From Streptomyces sp. SPB074 (GTDB lineage: Bacteria > Actinomycetota > Actinomycetes > Streptomycetales > Streptomycetaceae), in the NCBI RefSeq assembly GCF_000154905.1, contig NZ_GG770539.1, positions 6,149,773-6,213,772 of the forward strand: a DNA stretch of 64,000 nt, in the 5' to 3' direction. The notes below the pieces were generated by a model that was not told where the DNA came from, made no database searches, and saw nothing but the letters and a program-made list of their open reading frames with translations. The position numbers and the translations under genes were made by a program. Within the stretch, counting starts at the first letter, position 1. Each line of letters opens with the position of its first letter. Below are positions 35,944 through 54,247 of the stretch, in pieces.

Positions 35944-36105
35944 TCAGGACGCCTTCGCTCCGGATTTCGCCTGCTCGCGCACCACGGAGCCCGGGTACCG
36001 CTTCGAGACGGCCTTTGCCGTCGGCTCGGACGTCGAGGAGTAGACGACCTTGTCGGACGCGACGACCTCGAAGGTCTTGCGGTTCTTCGCACAGGAGCAG
36101 GGCAT
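35944..36105 (-). CDS. Small protein in head operon
   Basis: A 53-residue basic protein (MPCSCAKNRKTFEVVASDKV...), too short for many gene finders. Its ATG overlaps the stop of the polyprotein gene by one base (TGATG), strongly indicating translational coupling. Similar tiny proteins follow the protease gene in other Streptomyces phages. Function unknown. Confidence 0.65.
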   Translation of the reverse strand: MPCSCAKNRKTFEVVASDKVVYSSTSEPTAKAVSKRYPGSVVREQAKSGAKAS

Positions 36106-39100
36106 CAGATTCCTTCCTTGACCTTCGCCGCGAAGCTCGCGGCCAGGTCCATCCGGGCAGGCGCGAGCCGCTGCGTGAGCCGCTCGATCTCGGCGCGCGC
36201 CGCCTGCCGATCCGCCGCGCGCTGGTCCAGGGCGTCCAGGAGCCGGTCCAGGACGGGAGGGGAGACGAGGGCGGCAGCCAGGGCGCCGGCGGCCGACTCG
36301 TCCGGAGCCAGTCCGGGCAGGTCCGGAGCTTGTCCGCCCGGGGTGTTGTCCGGCTGTCCGGTCGGGGTGTCCGCGCTGGTCACGAGCGCGGACATGGAGG
36401 CGACGAGGGCGAGGTTCGAGCGCTCAGCGACGGCGGACGCGAGGAGCGGAGAGCTGTGCCCGGGCACAGGCACGGACAGGACAGCGCGGAGCTGCCAGGC
36501 CCCGCCCCGGCCCTGCCGCATGTGGTAGCTCGGCTGGCACGCCTGGAAAACAGCACGGTCCCACTCGGCGAGCCACGGGGATGCCGCGCCGCTGAACCAC
36601 ATGCCGCGCTTGTTCATGCCGACGGTGACGATTCCGGCGACGGTGCGCGTGTCGTCGAACTGGCAGGCGGCGGTCTCGCACTCCGCGCCGTCGCGGTGGT
36701 GCCCCACGTTCATGGTGAAGGTGCCGACCTTGACGGTGCTGCCGTCGTCGAGGCGGAACCGCGCGCGGAGGAAGTGCGTGGTGTCGATGCGCCCCAGGCT
36801 CTCGATCGTCAGGTTCTTGCCCGGGTATCCGGCGTGCGGCTCTCCGGCCTGGGCGACCCAGCCGTACACCCTGCCGTCCTTGTAGTGAACGCCGCCGGAG
36901 CCGGGCGGCAACTCCTCGGCGGTCGGCTCGCGGAACCACGCGGCGGGCATCGGGGGCGCCTGGCTCATCGCGTTCCAGGCAGATGCTTCGAGCTCGCGCA
37001 TGCCGGTCTCCTCTTCGTCGTCGTCCCAGGGGGCGCGCAGCGTCGGGTCGTCCAAGGCGTCGGCGAGCAGGGCGTAGAGGTCTTCGACGCGGTCGCGGAG
37101 GCCGTCCTGCTCGGTCTCGGGGATGTCGGCTCCGCCTCGGCCGCCCTGGAGGACGGAGGCGATCGCGAAGACCGCGCCCGGCACGATGTGGAGTTCGCCG
37201 TCGAAGACGTCGGCGGTGCCGAGCTTGTACGCGGCGAGCGTGGCCGGATCGGCGGTTTCGTCGCGGTAGAGGAACGCCGCGCCGAGGCGCTGGCCGTTCA
37301 CGGTGCCGTCCTCGGCGGTGGCCCAGGCGAGGACGCGGGCGGCGGCGGCGTCGCCGTCCCAGGGGGCGTCCCGGTCGGGACGGACGGGAAGAGAGAGGTC
37401 GCCCGACATCGCAGCCGACACCTCCCCCTCGGGGAGATCGGGGCTACCGACGTACAGGCCGCGCGCGAGCCGTACGAGGTGCCCGGCGGTGACCGCGCGG
37501 GCAAGCAGCGATCGGGCCTGCGCGAGGGGGATGCTCAGGGCCTCGGCGACCTCGCGGGGGGTGACGGCGACGGGGGCACCGGAGACGTAGCGGACGACGC
37601 GGGTCATCGCGTCCCCGGCGGCCTGCACCGTGGGAGTGCAGGCTGCCGTCTGCTCGGGGTCCGGCTCCGGGCCGAGCACGATGCGGGCTCGGTCGTAGGC
37701 GGGCATGGCGACGAGAGTCGCGCCGCGCAGCCGGGCGCGGGTGATCCGCATGAGGACATCGCCCGCGGACTCCTGGTGGACCAGCTCCCCGCGCTCGGGG
37801 TCGTCGGGGTCACCGGCGGCAGCGGTGATCCGCGCGTCCGTGAGCGCGGCGCGTACGGCTCCGAAGGGGACGGTGCCGTCTGCCGCGGTCGTCCACTCGG
37901 CGGCGTGGCTGGTGCGGAGCATGGCCTGCCCGCTCGCGGTCCACTGCGCGGCGGCGGTGGCCCGGACCATCCATCCTCCGTCGGCGAGGCGTAGTACGGA
38001 CGCGGAGGCGAGGGAGGCGACGAGGAGGACTTCGTCGTCCTGCGGCTGCTCCTCGGGCGGGCGCCGGTCGATGAACTCGATGTCGACGTCGTCGAGGTCG
38101 ACGCTGACGCCGAGGGGCGCCTCGTCCTCCAGGAGCAGGATGGCGTCGGCGCCTGCGGGGCGTCCGGGGTAGAGGACTCCGGCACCGGCGATGCGGTCGC
38201 CGTCGCGGTCGACGTCCTGGATGGCGCCCGCCAGCTCGGCGCCCTCGTGGCCGGACAGCATCTCGTCGGCGTACTGGAGGGGCCAGGGGCCGGTGCCCCA
38301 GGTGAGGGAGCCGGGCGCGAAGATGCGACCGTCGCCGGTCTCGGTGTTCTCGTATGCGAGGGCCGCGTCCTCCGGGGTGGACCAGGGGCGGGGGAGGAGG
38401 GCGACCGGCGCGGCGGCGGTCTGCTCGGCGGGGACATCAGCGGGGCCGAGGGGGATGTCGATGTGCTCGCCTGCGAAGGCGAGCCGGACCCGGTCGAAGA
38501 CGAGGGGGCCGAGGCGGCTTTCCAGCTCGGCGAGGAGCGCGGGGTCGGGGGAGTAGGCGGCGGCGACGTGCGGCACCCACGGGCTGTGCTGCCGAGGAAT
38601 CTCAGGGTGGTTAGCCTCTTGCAGCGCGTCGGTCGCGGCGGCGCGGACGGTGGTGAGGGTGGGACCTTCCTCGTTCGTGTCGCGGTCGTCGCCGACTGCC
38701 CAGACCCAGCACGGGTCGTCGCCGTTGCTGTTCCAGTGGTTCGCGCCGAAGGCGTAGCCGGGCAGCGGGCCGGGGATGTCGGCGAGGCGCGCGCGAACGG
38801 CGTTGGCCAGCTCGGCGCGCTCGCCGTCGGACCAGTCGGCGCCGTCGCCGAGGTAGTAGAGGGTGAGGTGCAGCTCGCTGACGTCTTCGCCGCCTTCGAG
38901 GGCGAGGCGGGCGGCGTCGGCTGGGGCGGGCAGGAGCGCGATCATCGCGCCTGTGTGCTCGCCGCTCGCGGCGGTCAGTGACTCCATGATCGCGAGTTCC
39001 TTTCGATTCGAAGACGCGGCACGGGAGATCGTTTTGGATTCCATGGCTGCGGAACGGTCTGCGTGCGCCAATGCCAGAACGCACCGGCAGTTCACAGTGA

Positions 39101-39824
39101 GAGCGGGTGGGGCGCCCGGGTCACCAGGGCCGGACATCTCCACCCCGCCCACCGTGAACGGCTCGTCCAGCAAACGGAGTTGGCCGTCCGCGTCGTCGTG
39201 CGCATCCCGTACGCGCTTGTCGCTGCGGGTGCGCCACTGCTTCACGAGCGGCCGATCCGGGCCCGCGAGCGCCACGCCTGCGGCGAGCGTCGCTGAGTTC
39301 CAGGACCGCGCCGCTTCGGTCCGCGCGATCCGCTCCTCGCGGGCGTCGCCGAGCTGCGCGCCTTCCCGATCGAACCGCGCCCGCAGGCGGGCCCGCAGCG
39401 CCTCGATGTCCTCGCCCGCGCCCAGCCCGGCCGCCAGCTCCGTGACTGCCGCGCTGGAGAGACGGTCACCGACGGCGCGCAGCAGGTGCTCGGTCGTCTT
39501 GACGTAGGCGCCGAGTCCGGCCGGGAGCCGACCGCTGTCGTAGCGGCCGGGCAGGTCGTCCCACTCTTCGGGCAGCTCGGCGTCGACCGTCCCGGCGGCG
39601 TGCTGCGCTGCTGCCTCGGTGACGCCGAGGAGGCGACGCACGAGGCGCGGAACGTGGCGGCTCCACATGCGGCCGATGGCCGCCACGGAGAACCGGGCGG
39701 CGACCAGCTCGGTAGCCGCGTCGAGTTCGGTGGCGAAGTCGGCGGCGACCTCGTCGAGGACGGCCTGTACCTCGGCGGCGATGTCGTCCTCGGCCTGGGC
39801 CAGCAGGGCGTCACGATCCGGCAC
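36105..39824 (-). CDS. MuF - 2H phosphoesterase - prohead protease polyprotein
   Basis: The 1239-residue product reads as several fused domains. Residues about 40-260 are MuF/SPP1 gp7-like (RVRDAHDDADGQ near 205-214 and VNCRC at 244-248). Residues about 290-435 are a 2H phosphoesterase (RNA-ligase-like) fold with the two HxT/S-type motifs HLT (319-321) and HVA (419-421). From about 450 there is a capsid maturation protease-like region (DGDRIAGAGVLYPG, PLGVSVDLDDVDIEF). A small winged-helix-like segment (PREVAEALSIPLAQARSLLA), then a tail domain, follow. Head maturation is expected. The 2H domain acts on 2'-5' or cyclic-phosphate nucleotides in other proteins; its role here is inferred. GTG 39824 overlaps the upstream gene. 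Confidence 0.7.
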   Translation of the reverse strand: MPDRDALLAQAEDDIAAEVQAVLDEVAADFATELDAATELVAARFSVAAIGRMWSRHVPRLVRRLLGVTEAAAQHAAGTVDAELPEEWDDLPGRYDSGRLPAGLGAYVKTTEHLLRAVGDRLSSAAVTELAAGLGAGEDIEALRARLRARFDREGAQLGDAREERIARTEAARSWNSATLAAGVALAGPDRPLVKQWRTRSDKRVRDAHDDADGQLRLLDEPFTVGGVEMSGPGDPGAPPALTVNCRCVLALAHADRSAAMESKTISRAASSNRKELAIMESLTAASGEHTGAMIALLPAPADAARLALEGGEDVSELHLTLYYLGDGADWSDGERAELANAVRARLADIPGPLPGYAFGANHWNSNGDDPCWVWAVGDDRDTNEEGPTLTTVRAAATDALQEANHPEIPRQHSPWVPHVAAAYSPDPALLAELESRLGPLVFDRVRLAFAGEHIDIPLGPADVPAEQTAAAPVALLPRPWSTPEDAALAYENTETGDGRIFAPGSLTWGTGPWPLQYADEMLSGHEGAELAGAIQDVDRDGDRIAGAGVLYPGRPAGADAILLLEDEAPLGVSVDLDDVDIEFIDRRPPEEQPQDDEVLLVASLASASVLRLADGGWMVRATAAAQWTASGQAMLRTSHAAEWTTAADGTVPFGAVRAALTDARITAAAGDPDDPERGELVHQESAGDVLMRITRARLRGATLVAMPAYDRARIVLGPEPDPEQTAACTPTVQAAGDAMTRVVRYVSGAPVAVTPREVAEALSIPLAQARSLLARAVTAGHLVRLARGLYVGSPDLPEGEVSAAMSGDLSLPVRPDRDAPWDGDAAAARVLAWATAEDGTVNGQRLGAAFLYRDETADPATLAAYKLGTADVFDGELHIVPGAVFAIASVLQGGRGGADIPETEQDGLRDRVEDLYALLADALDDPTLRAPWDDDEEETGMRELEASAWNAMSQAPPMPAAWFREPTAEELPPGSGGVHYKDGRVYGWVAQAGEPHAGYPGKNLTIESLGRIDTTHFLRARFRLDDGSTVKVGTFTMNVGHHRDGAECETAACQFDDTRTVAGIVTVGMNKRGMWFSGAASPWLAEWDRAVFQACQPSYHMRQGRGGAWQLRAVLSVPVPGHSSPLLASAVAERSNLALVASMSALVTSADTPTGQPDNTPGGQAPDLPGLAPDESAAGALAAALVSPPVLDRLLDALDQRAADRQAARAEIERLTQRLAPARMDLAASFAAKVKEGI

Positions 39825-49172: not shown

Positions 49173-49901
49173 TCAGCGGGTGATGCGGAAGAAGTGGTCG
49201 TCGTCGTGACCGTTCGCGGTCAGCCCGGCGCAGGCGAGCGCCGTACGTGCCTGCGCACGAAGTAGGGCCTCCACCGAGTTCAAATCGAAGGGGTCCACCT
49301 CGTCGCTCCCGTGTGCGACCAGCCACACGCCGTCGGCGTCCGCGTCGTACAGGTGCACGCCCGAGGTGTGGAAGAGGAAGTCGTCGTCGCCCAGGTACTC
49401 GATGTGGGCGAAGGGAACGCGGTGGGAGACCAGGGCGTCGTGTGCGACGTCCTGGATTGCCCTGCGGGGGGCGTTCGCGGTGTCGCGGATCTCGGCGAGG
49501 CGCTGGAGCTGCTGGCCGATCCCGAGGTTGAGGAGCGGCGCGGAGGCGTGCGGCCACACCTCTCGGGCGGCGGCCACGTAGTCAGCCCCGGCCAGGACGA
49601 TGACCACCCGAGCATCCGCGTGGCCGAGGGCGGCGGCCTGGGCGCGGAGTTCGGCGGGTGTGACGGCGTCGGGGTCGGTGATGCGGGTCTCGTACGGGAG
49701 GAGCGGGGTGTCGAGACTGACGAGGCCGTGGCGACCGGACAGTACCTGGACGGTTCCTCCGTCGGCGGTGAGGGCTTCGGCGGTACGGCGGGCGGCGCGG
49801 TGGTAGCCGCCGGTGTAGAGGTCCCGGGCGGGGACGGGCTTCGGTGTGGGGAGCTTGCTCGCGGAGCAGGGGATGAGGACGAGGGGACCGGTGGTACGCA
49901 C
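49173..49901 (-). CDS. DUF6884-like protein
   Basis: The 242-residue product starts LVLIPCSASKLPTPKPVPARDLYTG, then GTVQVLSGRHGLVSLDTPLLPYETRI, the pattern of DUF6884 proteins, often found in actinobacterial phages and plasmids and thought to relate to nucleotide or base metabolism. The C-terminal half (DFLFHTSGVHLYDADADGVWLVAHG) is not recognised. AAGGAG lies 6 nt before GTG 49901. It is downstream of the PP2C gene and probably shares promoter P1. Confidence 0.65.
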   Translation of the reverse strand: MRTTGPLVLIPCSASKLPTPKPVPARDLYTGGYHRAARRTAEALTADGGTVQVLSGRHGLVSLDTPLLPYETRITDPDAVTPAELRAQAAALGHADARVVIVLAGADYVAAAREVWPHASAPLLNLGIGQQLQRLAEIRDTANAPRRAIQDVAHDALVSHRVPFAHIEYLGDDDFLFHTSGVHLYDADADGVWLVAHGSDEVDPFDLNSVEALLRAQARTALACAGLTANGHDDDHFFRITR

Positions 49902-49954
49902 GTGGTTCTCCTTGGGCGAGGCCGGGCGCGCGTCGGGGCGCGCCCGGCGAGGGG

Positions 49955-50710
49955 CTAGAGGTCGGCGACGAGGACTGTCGCGTTGTCGGCGTACTGGCGG
50001 CCGTCGTCCTCGGACGTCTTCAGGGATGTTTCGACGGCGGTGTTCACGAAGCGGCGCGCGGCCTCGCCCGGCGTACCGGTGAGGAAGTCGGGAAGGGCGT
50101 GTCCGGAGTCCTCGTGAGGCTCGTACGCGCCGTCGCTCGCCAGCAGGAGGCGCAGACCGGACGGGCCCGGGACCGTCGCAGTCTCGATGGCGGGGTGTCC
50201 GTACGCGCTCCGGACGGAATCGTCGTCGGAGGAGTCGCCGAGGTAGCTGGTGATGATGTTGCGGTTGCCGCCGTTGTGCGCGCTGCACGGCGGGTAGACG
50301 CGGCGGAGGTTGTGGTCCTGCGTCAGCCTGCGGGCAGTGCCCTGCTGGATTGCGTAAGCGCGGCAGTCTCCGGCCCACGCGATCGTGAGGGGCTTACCCG
50401 GGAGGTGGACGGCCACGATCGCGGCGGCGCTGGGCTCGTAGCGGCGGGTGTGGGAGTCCTGGCGCAGCGGGTCGGCGGCGTATGCCTTGTAGACGGCGCG
50501 CAGCCCTGCTTCGGCATTGAGTCGGCGGGCGGCGGCACGGGCGAGGCGCGCGGCTGCGATGCGGACCCAGTCGCGGATGTGGGGGCGGTCCCCGATGCCG
50601 TCGAGCACGACGTAGGCGCGGGCGCCGCTGACGGGGTCGGTACGGAAGGCTGTGGCGTCGCACTGGTTGCCGCGAAGGCCGATGTGCTGGGCGGTGGCGT
50701 AGGTGCGCAT
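49955..50710 (-). CDS. PP2C-type Ser/Thr phosphatase
   Basis: A 251-residue protein with PP2C motifs: VVLDGIGDRP (Asp37-Gly38), AWAGDCRAYAI (about 111-120), LLLASDGAYE and a terminal DNATVLVADL. These supply the aspartates of the two-metal centre. It likely removes phosphate from Ser/Thr of host or phage proteins in the cytoplasm. It is the first sizeable gene downstream of operator-containing promoter P1, after a 20-residue peptide. Confidence 0.75.
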   Translation of the reverse strand: MRTYATAQHIGLRGNQCDATAFRTDPVSGARAYVVLDGIGDRPHIRDWVRIAAARLARAAARRLNAEAGLRAVYKAYAADPLRQDSHTRRYEPSAAAIVAVHLPGKPLTIAWAGDCRAYAIQQGTARRLTQDHNLRRVYPPCSAHNGGNRNIITSYLGDSSDDDSVRSAYGHPAIETATVPGPSGLRLLLASDGAYEPHEDSGHALPDFLTGTPGEAARRFVNTAVETSLKTSEDDGRQYADNATVLVADL

Positions 50711-50854: not shown

Positions 50855-50896
50855 CGATATGCCTAAGCGTTAGGCAATGTCAAAACACTAGGCAAT
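50855..50896 (-). promoter_or_regulatory. Promoter P1 with operator
   Basis: On the minus strand TTGACA (50878-50883) and TATCGT (50854-50859) are spaced 18 nt apart. The spacer holds the perfect inverted repeat TGCCTAACGCTTAGGCA (50860-50876), and a half-site CCTAGTG lies upstream. It should drive the peptide/PP2C/DUF6884 unit and closely matches P2 and P3. Confidence 0.75.
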
Positions 50897-51012: not shown

Positions 51013-51018
51013 TACGTT
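51013..51018 (+). promoter_or_regulatory. Possible -10 of the Y-RNA transcript
   Basis: TACGTT is placed so that transcription would start near 51025, the first base of the first RNA's outer stem. No good -35 is visible. Confidence 0.3.
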
Positions 51019-51024
51019 CTCCTC

Positions 51025-51154
51025 GTCCAGGTGCGAAGGCGCGGGTTACTTCCACTGGTAATGGAGAGGTTGCGGGTTCGAATCCCGTCACCACCTCGGG
51101 TGGTGTAGCTCAACGGCAGAGCGCTTATTACCCGCTCCAACTCGATCTCTGGAC
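51025..51154 (+). ncRNA. Y-RNA-like RNA 1 with Thr(GGU)-type permuted tRNA domain
   Basis: Outer stem GTCCAG/CTGGAC (51025-51030 with 51149-51154), internal loop (GTGCGAAGGC on the left, GATCT on the right), inner stem GCGGGT/ACCCGC (51041-51046 with 51130-51135). The apical part is a cloverleaf in permuted order. It comprises an anticodon-like arm TTCCA-CTGGTAA-TGGAG (51050-51066), a 5-nt variable loop, a T arm (72-88: GCGGG, TTCGAAT, CCCGT) and an acceptor stem CACCACC/GGTGGTG (51089-51095 with 51099-51105) closed by TCG. Then come TA and a D arm GCTC-AACGGCA-GAGC (51108-51122). U8, A14, G18G19 and A21 equivalents are all present. It lies in front of the Ro gene. Confidence 0.8.
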
Positions 51155-51166
51155 ACCACGCTTGCA

Positions 51167-51236
51167 CCTCCCGGTGCGCCGACACTGCGGCTACTTCTTC
51201 TGGTGAACCGCCGCACGTCACCTTGATCTCGGGAGG
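51167..51236 (+). ncRNA. Y-RNA-like RNA 2, minimal form
   Basis: Outer stem CCTCCCG/CGGGAGG (51167-51173 with 51230-51236), inner stem TGCGGC/GCCGCA (51186-51191 with 51210-51215) and an 18-nt apical loop that begins TACTTC, as in RNAs 1 and 3. The internal loop keeps GTGCGCCGACA on the left and GATCT on the right. It lacks a tRNA-like domain, so it is a plain Ro-binding RNA candidate. It starts 13 nt after RNA 1 and ends 11 nt before RNA 3, suggesting processing from one transcript. Confidence 0.7.
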
Positions 51237-51246
51237 CACCAGCACC

Positions 51247-51394
51247 GGGGCGCCCGGTGCGCCGACATGCGGATACTTCTGTCTCTCACACAGGGGACCC
51301 GGGTTCGAATCCCGGCGGCTCGACCACGCGTCGGGTCGTGGTGCAGCGGCCCAGCATCCTCGTCTCCGCCGTCACTTCCGATCTAGGGCGCCCC
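51247..51394 (+). ncRNA. Y-RNA-like RNA 3 with Glu(CUC)-type permuted tRNA domain
   Basis: Outer stem GGGGCGCCC/GGGCGCCCC (9 bp, 51247-51255 with 51386-51394), conserved internal loop (GTGCGCCGACA; GATCT), inner stem GCGGA/TCCGC (51269-51273 with 51365-51369). The permuted cloverleaf has an anticodon-like arm TCTGT-CTCTCAC-ACAGG (51278-51294; CUC at 34-36 with U33 and A37). Next are T arm CCGGG-TTCGAAT-CCCGG (51299-51315) and acceptor CGGCTCG/CGGGTCG (51316-51322 with 51332-51338; two G-U pairs) closed by a 9-nt loop containing ACCA. The D arm is GTGC-AGCGGCCCA-GCAT (51341-51357), which is tRNA-Glu-like. It ends 38 nt before the Ro start. Confidence 0.8.
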
Positions 51395-51432: not shown

Positions 51433-53082
51433 GTGTCCCGCTTCAACCGTCCCGCCGTCCGCACGGCCGCGACATCGCCGGTCGCCACCATCCCCGGCCC
51501 CGCACGCACGCACGAGGGCGGCGTCGGCTACGCCCGGGACCCGCGCGGGGAACTCTTCCTCCTCGCCGTCACCAACCTCGTCGGGCAGCGCACCTTCTAC
51601 GAGGCGGCCGAGACGCGCGACGACCGCTTCACCCAGCTCGTGCGCCACCTGGCCGTCGACGACCCGGTCTGGACGGCCGGCCTCCTCGGCTGGCTGCGCG
51701 GCGAAGGCAACCTGCGCACCGCCGCGCTCGTCGGCGCCGCCGAGGCCGTCCACGCCCGCTTGGAGGCAGAACGTGCCGCCTCCCTCCGCCCGGGGCCGAC
51801 CGCCGTCACCGGCGCCGTCCCGTACTCGAACCGCCGCCTCATCGCCTCCGTGCTCCAGCGCGCGGACGAGCCGGGGGAGCTGCTCGCCTACTGGCGGAGC
51901 CGGTTCGGCGCCCGCCTGCCCCAGCCCGTGAAGCGCGGTGTCGCGGACGCCGTCCAGCGGCTCTACACCGAGCGGTCCCTGCTCAAGTACGACACGGCCT
52001 CGCACGGCTTCCGCTTCGGGGATGTCCTGGAGCTGGTGCACGCGCGCCCGGCTGTCGACCGGCCCGCGCAGGGCGACCTCTTCAAGCACGCCATCGACCG
52101 GCGTCACGGCCGCGAGGGTGCCCCCGCCGCGCTCCCTCTCCTCGTCGAGCGGGAGCGCCTGGCCGCGCTGCCCGTCGCCAAGCGTCGCGAGGTGCTTCGC
52201 GACCCGGAGCGGCTGTCGCGTGCCGGGATGACCTGGGAAGCGCTCGCGGGGTGGCTCCAGGGCCCGATGGACGCGGCGGCGTGGGAGGCCGTGATCCCGG
52301 CGATGGGATACATGGCGCTCCTGCGCAACCTCCGGAACTTCGACCAGGCGGGCGTCCGCGACGAGGTCACCGAGCGCGTCGCCGCGCGCCTGGGCGACCC
52401 GGAGGAGGTGGCGCGCTCCCGCCAGCTCCCCATGCGGTTCTACTCGGCCTACAAGGCCGCGCCGTCGCTGCGGTGGGGGCACGCCCTGGAGAAGGCACTC
52501 GCCGCGGCGCTCTCCTCCGTGCCGGAGCTACCGGGACGGACCCTCGTCCTCGTCGACACCTCTACCTCGATGCAGGAGAACTTCTCGAAGGACGGGACGG
52601 TGGCACGCTGGGACGCTGCCGCGCTCTTCGGGATCGCCCTCGGGCAGCGCTGCGCGAGCGCTGACGTGGTGTCGTACTCCTCGGCGCGCTACTACCTGCG
52701 CGACGCGCCGGGAGCGAAGACGCGCGGCTTCCCGATGCGCGGCGGCGAGGCGCTGCTCCGGGCCGTCGAGCGATGGGACCGGGACGGATACTTCCTCGGC
52801 GGTGGCACGGACACGGCCGCCGCCCTGCGTGAGCAGTACCGGGGGCATGACCGCGTCGTGATCGTCACGGACGAGCAGTCCGGCGCCGACCCGACTGAGG
52901 TGGACCGGTCGGTCCCGGCGACGGTGCCGATGTACACGTGGAACCTCGCCGGGTACGAGCGCGGGCACGCGCCCTTGGGCAGCCCGGCCCGGCACGCCTT
53001 CGGCGGGCTCACGGACGCGGCCTTCCGGATGATCCCGCTCCTGGAGCGCGGGCGGGACGCCGCCTGGCCCTGGGAAGGCTGA
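51433..53082 (+). CDS. rsr: Ro60/TROVE-domain RNA-binding protein
   Basis: The 549-residue product has a TROVE domain (about residues 20-345, with ARDPRGELFLLAVTNLVGQ, VRHLAVDDPVWTAGLLGWLR and MALLRNLRNFDQAG). A von Willebrand A domain with a MIDAS motif DTSTSM near 374-379 and TDEQSG later follows. Bacterial Ro60 (Rsr) is a ring that binds Y RNAs and guides exonucleases in RNA decay and stress recovery. AAGGAGGGG lies about 5 nt before GTG 51433; longer readings run through the ncRNA cluster. The adjacent three Y-RNA candidates support the assignment. Confidence 0.9.
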   Translation: MSRFNRPAVRTAATSPVATIPGPARTHEGGVGYARDPRGELFLLAVTNLVGQRTFYEAAETRDDRFTQLVRHLAVDDPVWTAGLLGWLRGEGNLRTAALVGAAEAVHARLEAERAASLRPGPTAVTGAVPYSNRRLIASVLQRADEPGELLAYWRSRFGARLPQPVKRGVADAVQRLYTERSLLKYDTASHGFRFGDVLELVHARPAVDRPAQGDLFKHAIDRRHGREGAPAALPLLVERERLAALPVAKRREVLRDPERLSRAGMTWEALAGWLQGPMDAAAWEAVIPAMGYMALLRNLRNFDQAGVRDEVTERVAARLGDPEEVARSRQLPMRFYSAYKAAPSLRWGHALEKALAAALSSVPELPGRTLVLVDTSTSMQENFSKDGTVARWDAAALFGIALGQRCASADVVSYSSARYYLRDAPGAKTRGFPMRGGEALLRAVERWDRDGYFLGGGTDTAAALREQYRGHDRVVIVTDEQSGADPTEVDRSVPATVPMYTWNLAGYERGHAPLGSPARHAFGGLTDAAFRMIPLLERGRDAAWPWEG

Positions 53083-53162: not shown

Positions 53163-53582
53163 CTACAGGGGAAGCTCGGTATCGAGGCGTACCTGACGGA
53201 AAGAGGGCCAGAGCCTGGCCAGTGTCACGTAGTCCTTGTCGACATGCAGCACGGTGAGCGACTCGACATGTGCAGTCCCGGCGAGTAGCAGATCGACGGG
53301 GCCGCAAGAACGATGCGCTCCGTGCTTCGTAAGTGCCTCTTGCATGTCACGTCCGGCATCGTAGGCGGCGGGTGTCGGCGTGACGGCAGAAAATAGCAAA
53401 CCTAGTTTCTGTAGAAGTTCGTCGCGATCTCGCGCCTTCTGCGCTGAATAGCAGATTTCGAACTCGATAGGTGGAATGATCCCCACCTCGCCTCTGACGA
53501 TGCAGTCCTTCCAGGCTGGGAAAAGGTCGGGAGACTTGAAGAATCTGACCACGGCTGAGGTGTCGATGAGATAGTTGATCAC
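53163..53582 (-). CDS. vapC: PIN-domain toxin, VapC-like
   Basis: A 139-residue PIN ribonuclease: NYLIDTSAVVRFF supplies the first acidic residue, IPPIEFEICYSAQ the second and GPVDLLLAGTAH the third. This is the usual VapC plan; targets in other systems are tRNAs or rRNA. Its start overlaps the antitoxin stop (ATGA). The locus is less GC-rich than its surroundings, consistent with recent transfer. Confidence 0.75.
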   Translation of the reverse strand: MINYLIDTSAVVRFFKSPDLFPAWKDCIVRGEVGIIPPIEFEICYSAQKARDRDELLQKLGLLFSAVTPTPAAYDAGRDMQEALTKHGAHRSCGPVDLLLAGTAHVESLTVLHVDKDYVTLARLWPSFRQVRLDTELPL

Positions 53583-54247
53583 TCGCTCGATTCCGATCCC
53601 CTGGTCGCGGGTGAGTCGGTGGGCTCCACGCCAGATTCGCCGGTATCCGAAATGATTTGGTGAGCTTCTGCGACTTCCTTGGCCACTCTCAGTAGTAGAT
53701 CCATTGCGGGTAGTGTGACCGTGTATCCAACCTCGCCGTGGCCACTGCTTGCCTCGCTCGAACTCTTGAATTCCAGAGTCGAGGGGAGGAGCGAAGATGG
53801 GTCAGCGTAATCCAGTGAGCCTGCAATTAGCGCCTTCTCCATCCGGAAGGCGGGCCTTTCAGCGAGGAGCGCAGCCAGATTGCGCTTTGCTGCCTCCCGT
53901 GCTCGGGGCTGGAACTGTACGGCAAGGAGTGCAGCTTGGAGATCGCGCCTTGTTTGATCAGTCGCGCGCCGCAAAGATTCGCGCAAATGCCCGATGTTGG
54001 CTTCGCTCGCTTGTTCCGATGGCTCGCCAGGTGAAGGTCGGTAGTTACTCTTCTCGTCGAGCTGGTCCCAGTCGAGTCTGCCGCTGCTGATCATGTTGGA
54101 GAGATCAGTGATTGCGTTCTCGCGCTTTCCTTGGTCCGCGACAGCCCGAAGTGCTGCGTTAACGGTTTCCTTGATCGTAGTTGTCCCGAGCTTCTTCATG
54201 GCTGCTGCCAGGAGGTCCGGATCGATATCGACCGACTTTTTCGGCAT
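53579..54247 (-). CDS. vapB: VapB-type antitoxin with long C-terminal extension
   Basis: A 222-residue protein. Residues 1-60 match a VapB ribbon-helix-helix antitoxin (VDIDPDLLAAAMKKLGTTTIKETVNAALRAV), which normally ends near 70-90. Here an extra 150 residues follow, including a basic helical stretch (HLRESLRRATDQTRRDLQAALLAV) and a C-terminal ELPAMD-like segment of unknown fold. The N-terminal part should repress the operon and neutralise VapC; the extension may add a second function. It is coupled to vapC. Confidence 0.65.
   Translation of the reverse strand: MPKKSVDIDPDLLAAAMKKLGTTTIKETVNAALRAVADQGKRENAITDLSNMISSGRLDWDQLDEKSNYRPSPGEPSEQASEANIGHLRESLRRATDQTRRDLQAALLAVQFQPRAREAAKRNLAALLAERPAFRMEKALIAGSLDYADPSSLLPSTLEFKSSSEASSGHGEVGYTVTLPAMDLLLRVAKEVAEAHQIISDTGESGVEPTDSPATRGSESSE

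Follow-up and report, generated by a model that had tools for sequence, protein, structure and literature searches.

The Ro60 locus of the prophage and its three RNAs

The window, by which we mean the whole 64,000-nucleotide stretch analysed here, is a Streptomyces prophage and lies on a 6.8-Mb contig of a two-contig genome. Genes for a portal (phrog_776, E 5e-145), a major head protein (phrog_777), a connector (phrog_783) and a terminase (phrog_2) are found on the minus strand at about 20–45 kb of the window, which bears out the phage context proposed in an earlier, sequence-only reading of this DNA. A Ro60/TROVE gene is preceded by a tandem array of three RNAs:

51013–51018, plus strand: candidate −10 element TACGTT, 12 nt 5′ of the first outer stem
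51025–51154, plus strand: Y RNA 1, about 130 nt; outer stem, Ro-type internal loop, inner stem, UACUU junction and a predicted complete permuted tRNA including the anticodon arm
51167–51236, plus strand: Y RNA 2, about 70 nt; core and UACUUC motif as in the others, no tRNA module
51247–51394, plus strand: Y RNA 3, about 148 nt; common core and a second, different predicted permuted tRNA
51433–53082, plus strand: Ro60/TROVE protein, 549 aa (start as drawn), from profile matches

The product of the Ro60 gene matches the TROVE domain (PF05731) with 55.1 bits over 63 residues (cut-off 23), phrog_850 with an E value of 5.6e-45, and the PDB TROVE chains 9l5y and 9kop with E values of about 1e-23; it is the sole TROVE match in the genome of the window. 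Its letters include a DTSTS stretch, which we take to fit a vWA metal site, and PADLOC has no model that matches this Ro protein.

The outer stems pair GTCCAG (51025–51030) with CTGGAC (51149–51154) in Y RNA 1, CCTCCCG (51167–51173) with CGGGAGG (51230–51236) in Y RNA 2, and GGGGCGCCC (51247–51255) with GGGCGCCCC (51386–51394) in Y RNA 3. The inner stem of Y RNA 1 joins 51041–51046 to 51130–51135, and GGTGCG and GATCT are common to all three RNAs. The stems and internal-loop strands named in the sequence-only reading are thus readable in the sequence, and its sizes of 130, 70 and 148 nt match the coordinates; the gaps between the RNAs, given there as 11–13 nt, measure 12 and 10 nt. The loose core motif alone is not rare, with 12 matches on each strand of the window, the plus-strand ones including these three, and folding of the single sequences is only mildly better than that of shuffled ones (z of −2.4, −1.8 and −1.1 for RNAs 1–3); we take the array as real because it is conserved upstream of Ro60. 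A TANNNT element is likewise concentrated 13 and 12 nt 5′ of the first detected outer stem (27 and 13 matches among 137 loci, with 16 at −25 and no more than 7 at any other offset), and the TACGTT stretch at 51013–51018 is conserved in L002, the closest relative; no −35 box was recognised upstream of it. ARAGORN calls a tRNA-Glu(ctc) at 51258–51326 (plus strand) inside Y RNA 3, which we take as spurious because letters on the Ro-stem side serve as its acceptor strand. Among the relatives of the short RNA, the outer stem is unusually constant, with CCTCCC immediately 5′ of GG in 41 of 59 rows (alignment A2), and we note that GGGAGG in its 3′ outer strand resembles a ribosome-binding sequence.

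Several neighbouring features deserve mention. PIN-domain and VapB-like genes lie directly 3′ of the Ro60 gene (53163–54247, minus strand). This VapBC-like pair was considered as part of the system and rejected: it is absent from L002, and tblastn finds none at the other loci (flanks of at most 3 kb, some of 1.5 kb); having no counterpart in L002 or near other Ro genes, it is probably a recent insertion. A DUF6884 gene (49173–50378) matches the candidate defence family PDC-M57A and has a PP2C-like gene as its neighbour; both are divergent from the RNA array and both have matches in L002. Between the divergent genes, 50859–50894 contains two 18-nt direct repeats that are 72% alike, the first of which includes a near palindrome, GCCTAAGCGTTAGGC, and the repeats are a possible repressor site. 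A 1239-aa open reading frame (36105–39824) has portal, head-morphogenesis and RNA-ligase-annotated phrog matches in a single reading frame, and is either an odd fusion or an artefact of library annotation.

Anatomy of the long RNAs

Two tRNA mimics had been recognised in the sequence-only reading, and two are present; what it missed is that each appears to be a whole permuted tRNA with an anticodon arm. The predicted parts, with nucleotides named by tRNA position, are as follows:

51052–51066, plus strand: Y RNA 1, anticodon nt 29–31 (51052–51054), loop CUGGUAA (51055–51061, triplet GGU) and nt 39–43 (51062–51066)
51072–51088, plus strand: Y RNA 1, T arm, 5 bp, loop UUCGAAU
51089–51105, plus strand: Y RNA 1, acceptor-type stem, 7 bp, 3-nt closing loop
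51106–51125, plus strand: Y RNA 1, U8-A9, D arm (51108–51122), G26 (51123) and nt 27–28 (51124–51125, partners of nt 43–42)
51280–51294, plus strand: Y RNA 3, anticodon nt 29–31 (51280–51282), loop CUCUCAC (51283–51289, triplet CUC) and nt 39–43 (51290–51294)
51299–51338, plus strand: Y RNA 3, T arm (51299–51315) and acceptor-type stem (51316–51322 with 51332–51338, 9-nt loop)
51339–51360, plus strand: Y RNA 3, U8-G9, D arm (51341–51357), nt 26 (51358) and nt 27–28 (51359–51360, partners of nt 43–42)

The anticodon stem is thus split, its pairs being C27-G43, U28-A42, C29-G41, C30-G40 and A31-U39 in Y RNA 1, and C27-G43, U28-G42, U29-A41, G30-C40 and U31-A39 in Y RNA 3, whose loop has the same seven letters as that of the host tRNA-Glu(CTC). 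After nt 28 (51126–51129) many relatives have TACGT or TTGT 5′ of the inner stem, facing the near-invariant UACUU, and this junction may be a conserved motif itself.

A set of 283 candidate RNAs yielded 159 with a T arm, 151 of which could be parsed and 148 of which have all three arms; counted outward from the T loop, all arms are of the size seen in tRNA, with the 7-bp acceptor stem fully paired in 105 of the 151 long RNAs and the 4-bp D stem fully paired in 134. A 7-nt loop with the pattern CU-NNN-A-A is found in the segment from UACUU to the T arm, and the five flanking positions are fully paired around a 7-nt loop in 72 of 159 RNAs (10.2 when shuffled), compared with 11, 6, 6 and 9 of 159 for loops of 5, 6, 8 and 9 nt respectively. 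For strand sorting we used 70 RNAs selected by loop and not by stem, derived from 142 RNAs of 125–155 nt, of which 126 are non-redundant, 75 have the loop motif and 70 have clean joints. Pairs 27-43 and 28-42, formed with the strand after the D arm, are Watson-Crick in 66 and 64 of the 70 (35.9 and 40.7 permuted), and pairs 29-41, 30-40 and 31-39, for which the partner strand precedes the loop, in 65, 61 and 64 (52.2, 32.1 and 28.1 permuted); with the opposite strand assignments, Watson-Crick pairs stay within about two standard deviations of permutation. Pair 27-43 is C-G in 46, G-C in 13 and U-A in 6, and in 60 of 70 all five pairs of the combined split helix are standard. This sorting of the anticodon pairs by strand points to nt 28|29 as the place where the chain joins the anticodon stem, and because the Ro60-binding stem would then enter inside the anticodon stem, a normal 7-nt anticodon loop survives.

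Other ways of building the stem fare less well. A 5-bp hairpin drawn from the upstream strand alone was rejected, its outer two pairs being mostly wobbles or mismatches without covariation, as was an open topology for the window RNAs, in which nt 29–31 taken from after the D arm show no covariation. A stem taken entirely from downstream, with wobbles counted, scores 266 against 214.8 permuted, and the excess is traced to the outer two pairs.

Alignments of the relatives, computed with MAFFT and independently of the parse, were divided by variable loop. Alignment A3 holds all 46 RNAs with a 5-nt variable loop, window RNA 1 replacing its L002 relative; A4 has 21 rows, drawn from the 24 RNAs with a 4-nt variable loop after omission of L068, L078 and L087, and window RNA 3 stands for the L002 relative as the first row. 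The split stem in A3 has 95.5% of its cells paired, against 75.6% when shuffled, a covariation score of 0.465 against 0.122, and 34 two-sided changes against 6.3, and slid partners score no more than 0.090; two-sided changes occur at four of the five pairs, 29-41 being the exception, and 44 of 500 shuffles reach that number. The whole A3 structure is 96.0% paired. The corresponding A4 values are 89.3% against 69.1% and 0.663 against 0.248, with slid partners at no more than 0.333; at the A4 stem the row of the window is shifted relative to the others, so that the pairs of RNA 3 itself rest on the parse. In the mixed alignment A1 (57 rows: 55 of the 70 and the two window RNAs replacing the L002 pair, 13 irregular-looking RNAs having been left out by hand), RNAalifold leaves the anticodon region unpaired, we think because the 4-nt and 5-nt variable loops are out of register. 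Since the sequences are related, permutation tests overstate their independence, a bias that the slid controls and the use of two alignments reduce but do not remove.

In a nearest-neighbour model, which leaves out tertiary contacts, the split stem lies 7.0 (RNA 1) and 7.4 kcal/mol (RNA 3) above the minimum energy. Over the 70 RNAs the median cost is 5.8 kcal/mol, with 2 RNAs within 1 kcal/mol and 9 within 3, compared with a median of 2.6 kcal/mol for the open stem of the type B RNAs described below (26 RNAs) and 0.0 for 51 host tRNA anticodon stems; enforcing the upstream hairpin instead of the split stem costs 1.1 and 1.6 kcal/mol for RNAs 1 and 3. The competing minimum-energy hairpins show no covariation in A3 (0.055 against 0.060 shuffled), and the same is true of the hairpins that compete in RNA 1 (0.032 against 0.035) and RNA 3 (0.127 against 0.149). 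Tertiary contacts or the Ro protein may be needed for the split-stem junction to form; alternatively, the RNA may alternate between folds.

When topology is scored by Watson-Crick pairs, the 126 non-redundant RNAs divide into 78 of type A, in which the anticodon arm is kept, 26 of type B, in which the loop is open, 2 ties and 20 that are unclear; shuffled upstream segments give 6.75 and 7.12 of types A and B. Both long RNAs of the window are type A. The 15-48 pair is G-C or A-U in 104 of the 107 RNAs with clean joints (56.9 permuted, with a maximum of 74), including 72 of 73 of type A (39.9 permuted) and all 21 of type B; it is A15-U48 in window RNA 1 and G15-C48 in RNA 3. U8 is accompanied by A14 in 105 of 107 overall and in all 73 of type A, and the D loop has GG in 105 of 107. 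This 15-48 and U8-A14 signature fits an L-shaped tRNA. We regard a four-arm circularly permuted tRNA as the architecture supported for the long RNAs by these comparisons of predicted structure.

The order of the halves is also that of a permuted tRNA gene, and in some algae and archaea such genes are processed into tRNAs. That the RNAs described here are processed into working tRNAs is nonetheless very improbable, as the opposite end of the molecule retains a conserved Ro stem, triplet and body disagree, and the acceptor strands are joined by loops, of 2 to 9 nt in nearly all of 72 RNAs; in place of the free acceptor ends and 3′ CCA of a functional tRNA there are strands closed by a short loop. 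ARAGORN accepts 67 of 72 molecules when re-joined and 6 of 72 in native order, but it also accepts 59 to 65 of 72 when the anticodon arm is shuffled, and so provides no evidence for that arm. By contrast with the features of a functional tRNA, the D, T and acceptor arms by which a bacterial Y RNA of the YrlA class is recognised in at least one RNA of a locus are present.

Occurrence upstream of Ro60 genes

When scanned for the core motif (stem, GGTGCG-like left strand, CTTC-like motif, GATC, stem), 143 of 176 related loci prove to have one or more Y-type RNAs upstream of Ro60, compared with 2 of 175 in the same scan downstream. These loci were drawn from 80 of 346 bacterial and 80 of 153 viral loci found, plus 30 from genomes of the family; removal of identical Ro stretches reduced the 190 to 178, of which 176 have at least 500 nt upstream. 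The association of Y-like RNAs with the adjoining Ro60 gene, claimed in the sequence-only reading, is therefore well founded in the window (55 bits for TROVE, and the YrlA match of RNA 1 described below) and conserved among relatives. The same reading called the three-RNA array a rich example; the three RNAs are there, but several per locus are common, with at least two at 103 of 176 loci and at least three at 25 of 176. Among the 143, the most frequent orders are short-long (41), long alone (23), short alone (13) and long-short (12), while long-short-long, the order in the window, and medium-long occur at 10 loci each, the remainder having other orders. These locus counts are probably too low, because the regular expression is overly strict where distant phages are concerned: it finds no match at 12 named phage loci, of which 10 have full-length matches to a covariance model.

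UACUUC or a close variant directly follows the inner stem in all three RNA types. Covariation in related phages, on which the sequence-only reading had staked its proposal, is marked in the long RNAs and can also be seen in the short ones: the outer stem of the long RNAs is 99.6% paired with two-sided changes at 4 of 6 pairs, and the short RNA is conserved in sequence with two-sided changes at 10 of 17 predicted pairs. GGTGCG and GATC are invariant in A1 and A3, the rows of which were picked by these motifs. Some relatives have RNAs of intermediate form, with the core and a T arm or partial tRNA (L006:2712–2796, L008:2718–2802 and L073:1508–1607, measured from GGTGCG to GATC), which possibly represent a series from the short to the full form.

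The covariance model, R1, was built from 46 type A sequences including window RNA 1, which scores 127.6 bits (its own sequence being in the model); RNA 3 scores 67.6 bits (E 4e-14). A covariance-model search of actinophages, as the sequence-only reading had suggested, gives the full-length matches in 10 of 12 named phages noted above, the hosts being Gordonia, Microbacterium, Mycobacterium, Streptomyces and Arthrobacter, with partial matches only in Loadrie and Kela. Four of the phages, VanLee (116 bits), Magritte, prophiGD43A-5 and GiJojo, have an R1 match that overlaps an annotated tRNA gene. The overlapping annotations, tRNA-Thr(tgt) at L193:2969–3047, tRNA-Arg(tct) at L195:3704–3775, tRNA-Arg(tct) at L276:2471–2547 and tRNA-Arg(cct) at L270:2269–2343, all just upstream of Ro-like genes, are probably wrong. 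The anticodon-arm form seems not to be confined to actinobacteria, as in Olaya, a phage of the proteobacterium Xanthomonas, a Ro-like gene is preceded by three model matches (L278:1269–1885); the two alignments inspected show UACUUC and a model-fitted anticodon arm, the better one with the loop CUGUUAA, although Rfam fits the arm of the 1762–1870 match partly as an insert.

Of 394 whole genomes of the family, 232 encode relatives of the Ro protein. Among 296 genomes of the class, 143 have an R1 match at E 1e-4, many of these matches being partial (model positions 31–107). The partial match in the window's own genome (5047777–5047854) spans two tandem tRNA genes, and we take the other partial matches to be tandem tRNA genes likewise, not Y RNAs. 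That tandem tRNA genes match this part of the model hints at an origin, and suggests that the mimic module arose from the junction of two such genes. To the rival reading that the RNAs of the window are what is left of tandem tRNA genes, or stems formed by chance, we give practically no credence: the full-length matches carry the Ro stem, and the outer, inner and split stems covary.

Possible roles of the permuted tRNAs

We think it likely that the array provides the RNA half of a phage Ro60 RNP, in which the stem tethers Ro60 and the permuted tRNA is a surrogate on which tRNA-handling enzymes dock. The common core of outer stem, inner stem and UACUUC junction, at which the middle RNA stops, would engage the protein, the outer stem with its GGUGCG and GAUCU strands holding the Ro60 ring, as homology suggests. 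In the long RNAs the chain would come in at nt 29 and pass through the anticodon loop, variable loop, T arm and one acceptor strand, then through the short loop, the other acceptor strand and the D arm, and go out at nt 28. The exposed anticodon loop could dock enzymes that read a whole tRNA, whether modifying, degrading, repairing or cleaving ones, and these would be recruited to Ro60 or kept busy; we infer both such partner enzymes and a benefit to the phage.

A plainer account, to which we give somewhat less than an even chance, is that the RNAs have the ordinary YrlA role of gating Ro60 and tethering PNPase, and that the anticodon arm is a prop or a relic. Tethering of PNPase is described in Deinococcus (PMC7790460, PMC8394870; these papers and those below are cited from excerpts), 26 of 126 RNAs at the same kind of loci lack the arm, and the short Y RNA has no tRNA module. 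A relic would be unlikely to keep U33, R37 and A38 (76, 72 and 73 of 78 type A RNAs) while both halves of the stem covary.

These type A loops, which were unselected on loop, also have C32 in 69 of 78, and they occur at chromosomal and viral loci alike. Their triplets are diverse (GUU 14, GCU 8, CUU 6, CCU 6, CUC 5, and others). At least 52 of 70 loops are letter-identical to an anticodon loop among the 51 host tRNAs, a lower bound as the tRNA-Glu(CTC) loop was mis-framed in the comparison. The idea that the mimics are copies of particular isoacceptors was rejected, as the triplet agrees with the nearest tRNA body in 6 of 70 (5.4 expected); among mimics with a Glu triplet the best match is tRNA-Glu in 3 of 6.

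U36-A37 marks t6A tRNAs. Type A loops have U36 in 47 of 78 and A37 in 63 of 78, and 11 of 41 distinct host anticodon entries end in U36, which raises the possibility that the RNAs are substrates for anticodon-loop modification, for example by the t6A37 machinery, as marked surrogates kept off the ribosome. YrlA is itself a substrate of DusA and TruB (PMC8394870). We consider this reading improbable, the signal being an enrichment only, among related sequences and in comparison with one genome.

We also regard it as unlikely that the RNP is an anticodon decoy, offering loops to host anticodon nucleases or tRNA-sensing defences so as to spare tRNAs or buffer a damage signal. Salmonella YrlA is reported to be uncut by an SOS-induced anticodon nuclease, and the authors suggest that its tRNA-like domain, which has no loop, may inhibit the nuclease competitively (PMC7790460); phage tRNAs have been proposed to counter anticodon nucleases (PMC10264068). 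At least four annotated tRNA genes lie near Ro in 6 of the 12 named phages (Sparky, BRock, GiJojo, Atuin, Neville and Sixama), and in the Streptomyces phage Kela an RNA ligase gene (L271:1729–2481) is immediately 5′ of Ro. Against a decoy, the role is not restricted to phages, given the relatives in 232 of 394 family genomes and type A RNAs at chromosomal loci; moreover, the VapBC-like pair is not conserved, the triplets are diverse and no PADLOC model matches this Ro protein. The broader proposition, that Ro60 RNPs found across actinobacteria and actinophages, and in one or more Xanthomonas phages, use whole permuted tRNAs with working anticodon loops as decoys for, or sensors of, anticodon nucleases, we hold to be unlikely as well. 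If it were true, Ro60 would join the tRNA-centred conflict between phage and host; the excerpts of two other papers discuss TROVE proteins of jumbo phages alongside RNA repair (PMC7824862) and describe abundant RNAs near an Rsr-like gene in a Listeria phage (PMC12282133).

Whichever of these applies, the reason for tRNA mimicry by bacterial Y RNAs now becomes testable. The published YrlA mimic, as described in the excerpts, has no anticodon arm, which makes ideas of nuclease inhibition and loop modification hard to test with it, and the mimic proposed here could be an anticodon substrate; type A RNAs and the arm-less type B RNAs at the same kind of loci are a ready experimental pair. The architecture would also show that the tRNA fold can be entered within a stem, at 28|29, with its tertiary contacts kept.

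Comparison with known systems

The three RNAs belong to the known Ro60/YrlA class. Nothing in the window matches Rfam at gathering scores. The comparison with Rfam Y RNA models that the sequence-only reading had recommended comes out in part: in a relaxed search RNA 1 matches YrlA (RF02553) with 43 bits (E 4.5e-8), under the gathering score of 69, and RNAs 2 and 3 have no YrlA match; the YrlA cut-off is reached at none of 12 related loci. Likeness to the Rsr-Y RNA-PNPase complex of Deinococcus (RYPER) lies in the combination of Ro60 and a Y RNA, compared here by description, from excerpts. Likeness to tmRNA and permuted tmRNA lies in tRNA mimicry within a larger RNA, and RNA 3 has weak tmRNA matches below the cut-off, for which the T arm and acceptor strand are chiefly responsible; RNA 3 differs from tmRNA in having a Ro-type stem where tmRNA has its mRNA-like part.

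The closest parallel is YrlA itself (RF02553; Salmonella YrlA, PDB 6CU1 as cited in the excerpted PMC8394870), which likewise adjoins Ro60 and has a long outer stem, and which is a permuted tRNA with a T arm, a closed acceptor-type stem and a D arm; its domain is described there as resembling the D, T and acceptor arms and as modified by DusA and TruB. The Rfam YrlA consensus has three hairpins and a 4-bp closing helix, and no anticodon hairpin. An anticodon arm in Y RNA mimics was not found in our literature search, which covered few subscription papers; what looks new is a mimic that is a whole permuted tRNA with its anticodon loop. Type B relatives (for example L036 at −173, L109 at −633 and L137 at −184) have the same core and tRNA body as type A, but form all five anticodon-stem pairs with the strand 3′ of the D arm, which leaves the loop open, as in YrlA. 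The mimics of the window differ from YrlA in that the predicted break falls at 28|29 and the 7-nt anticodon loop is kept.
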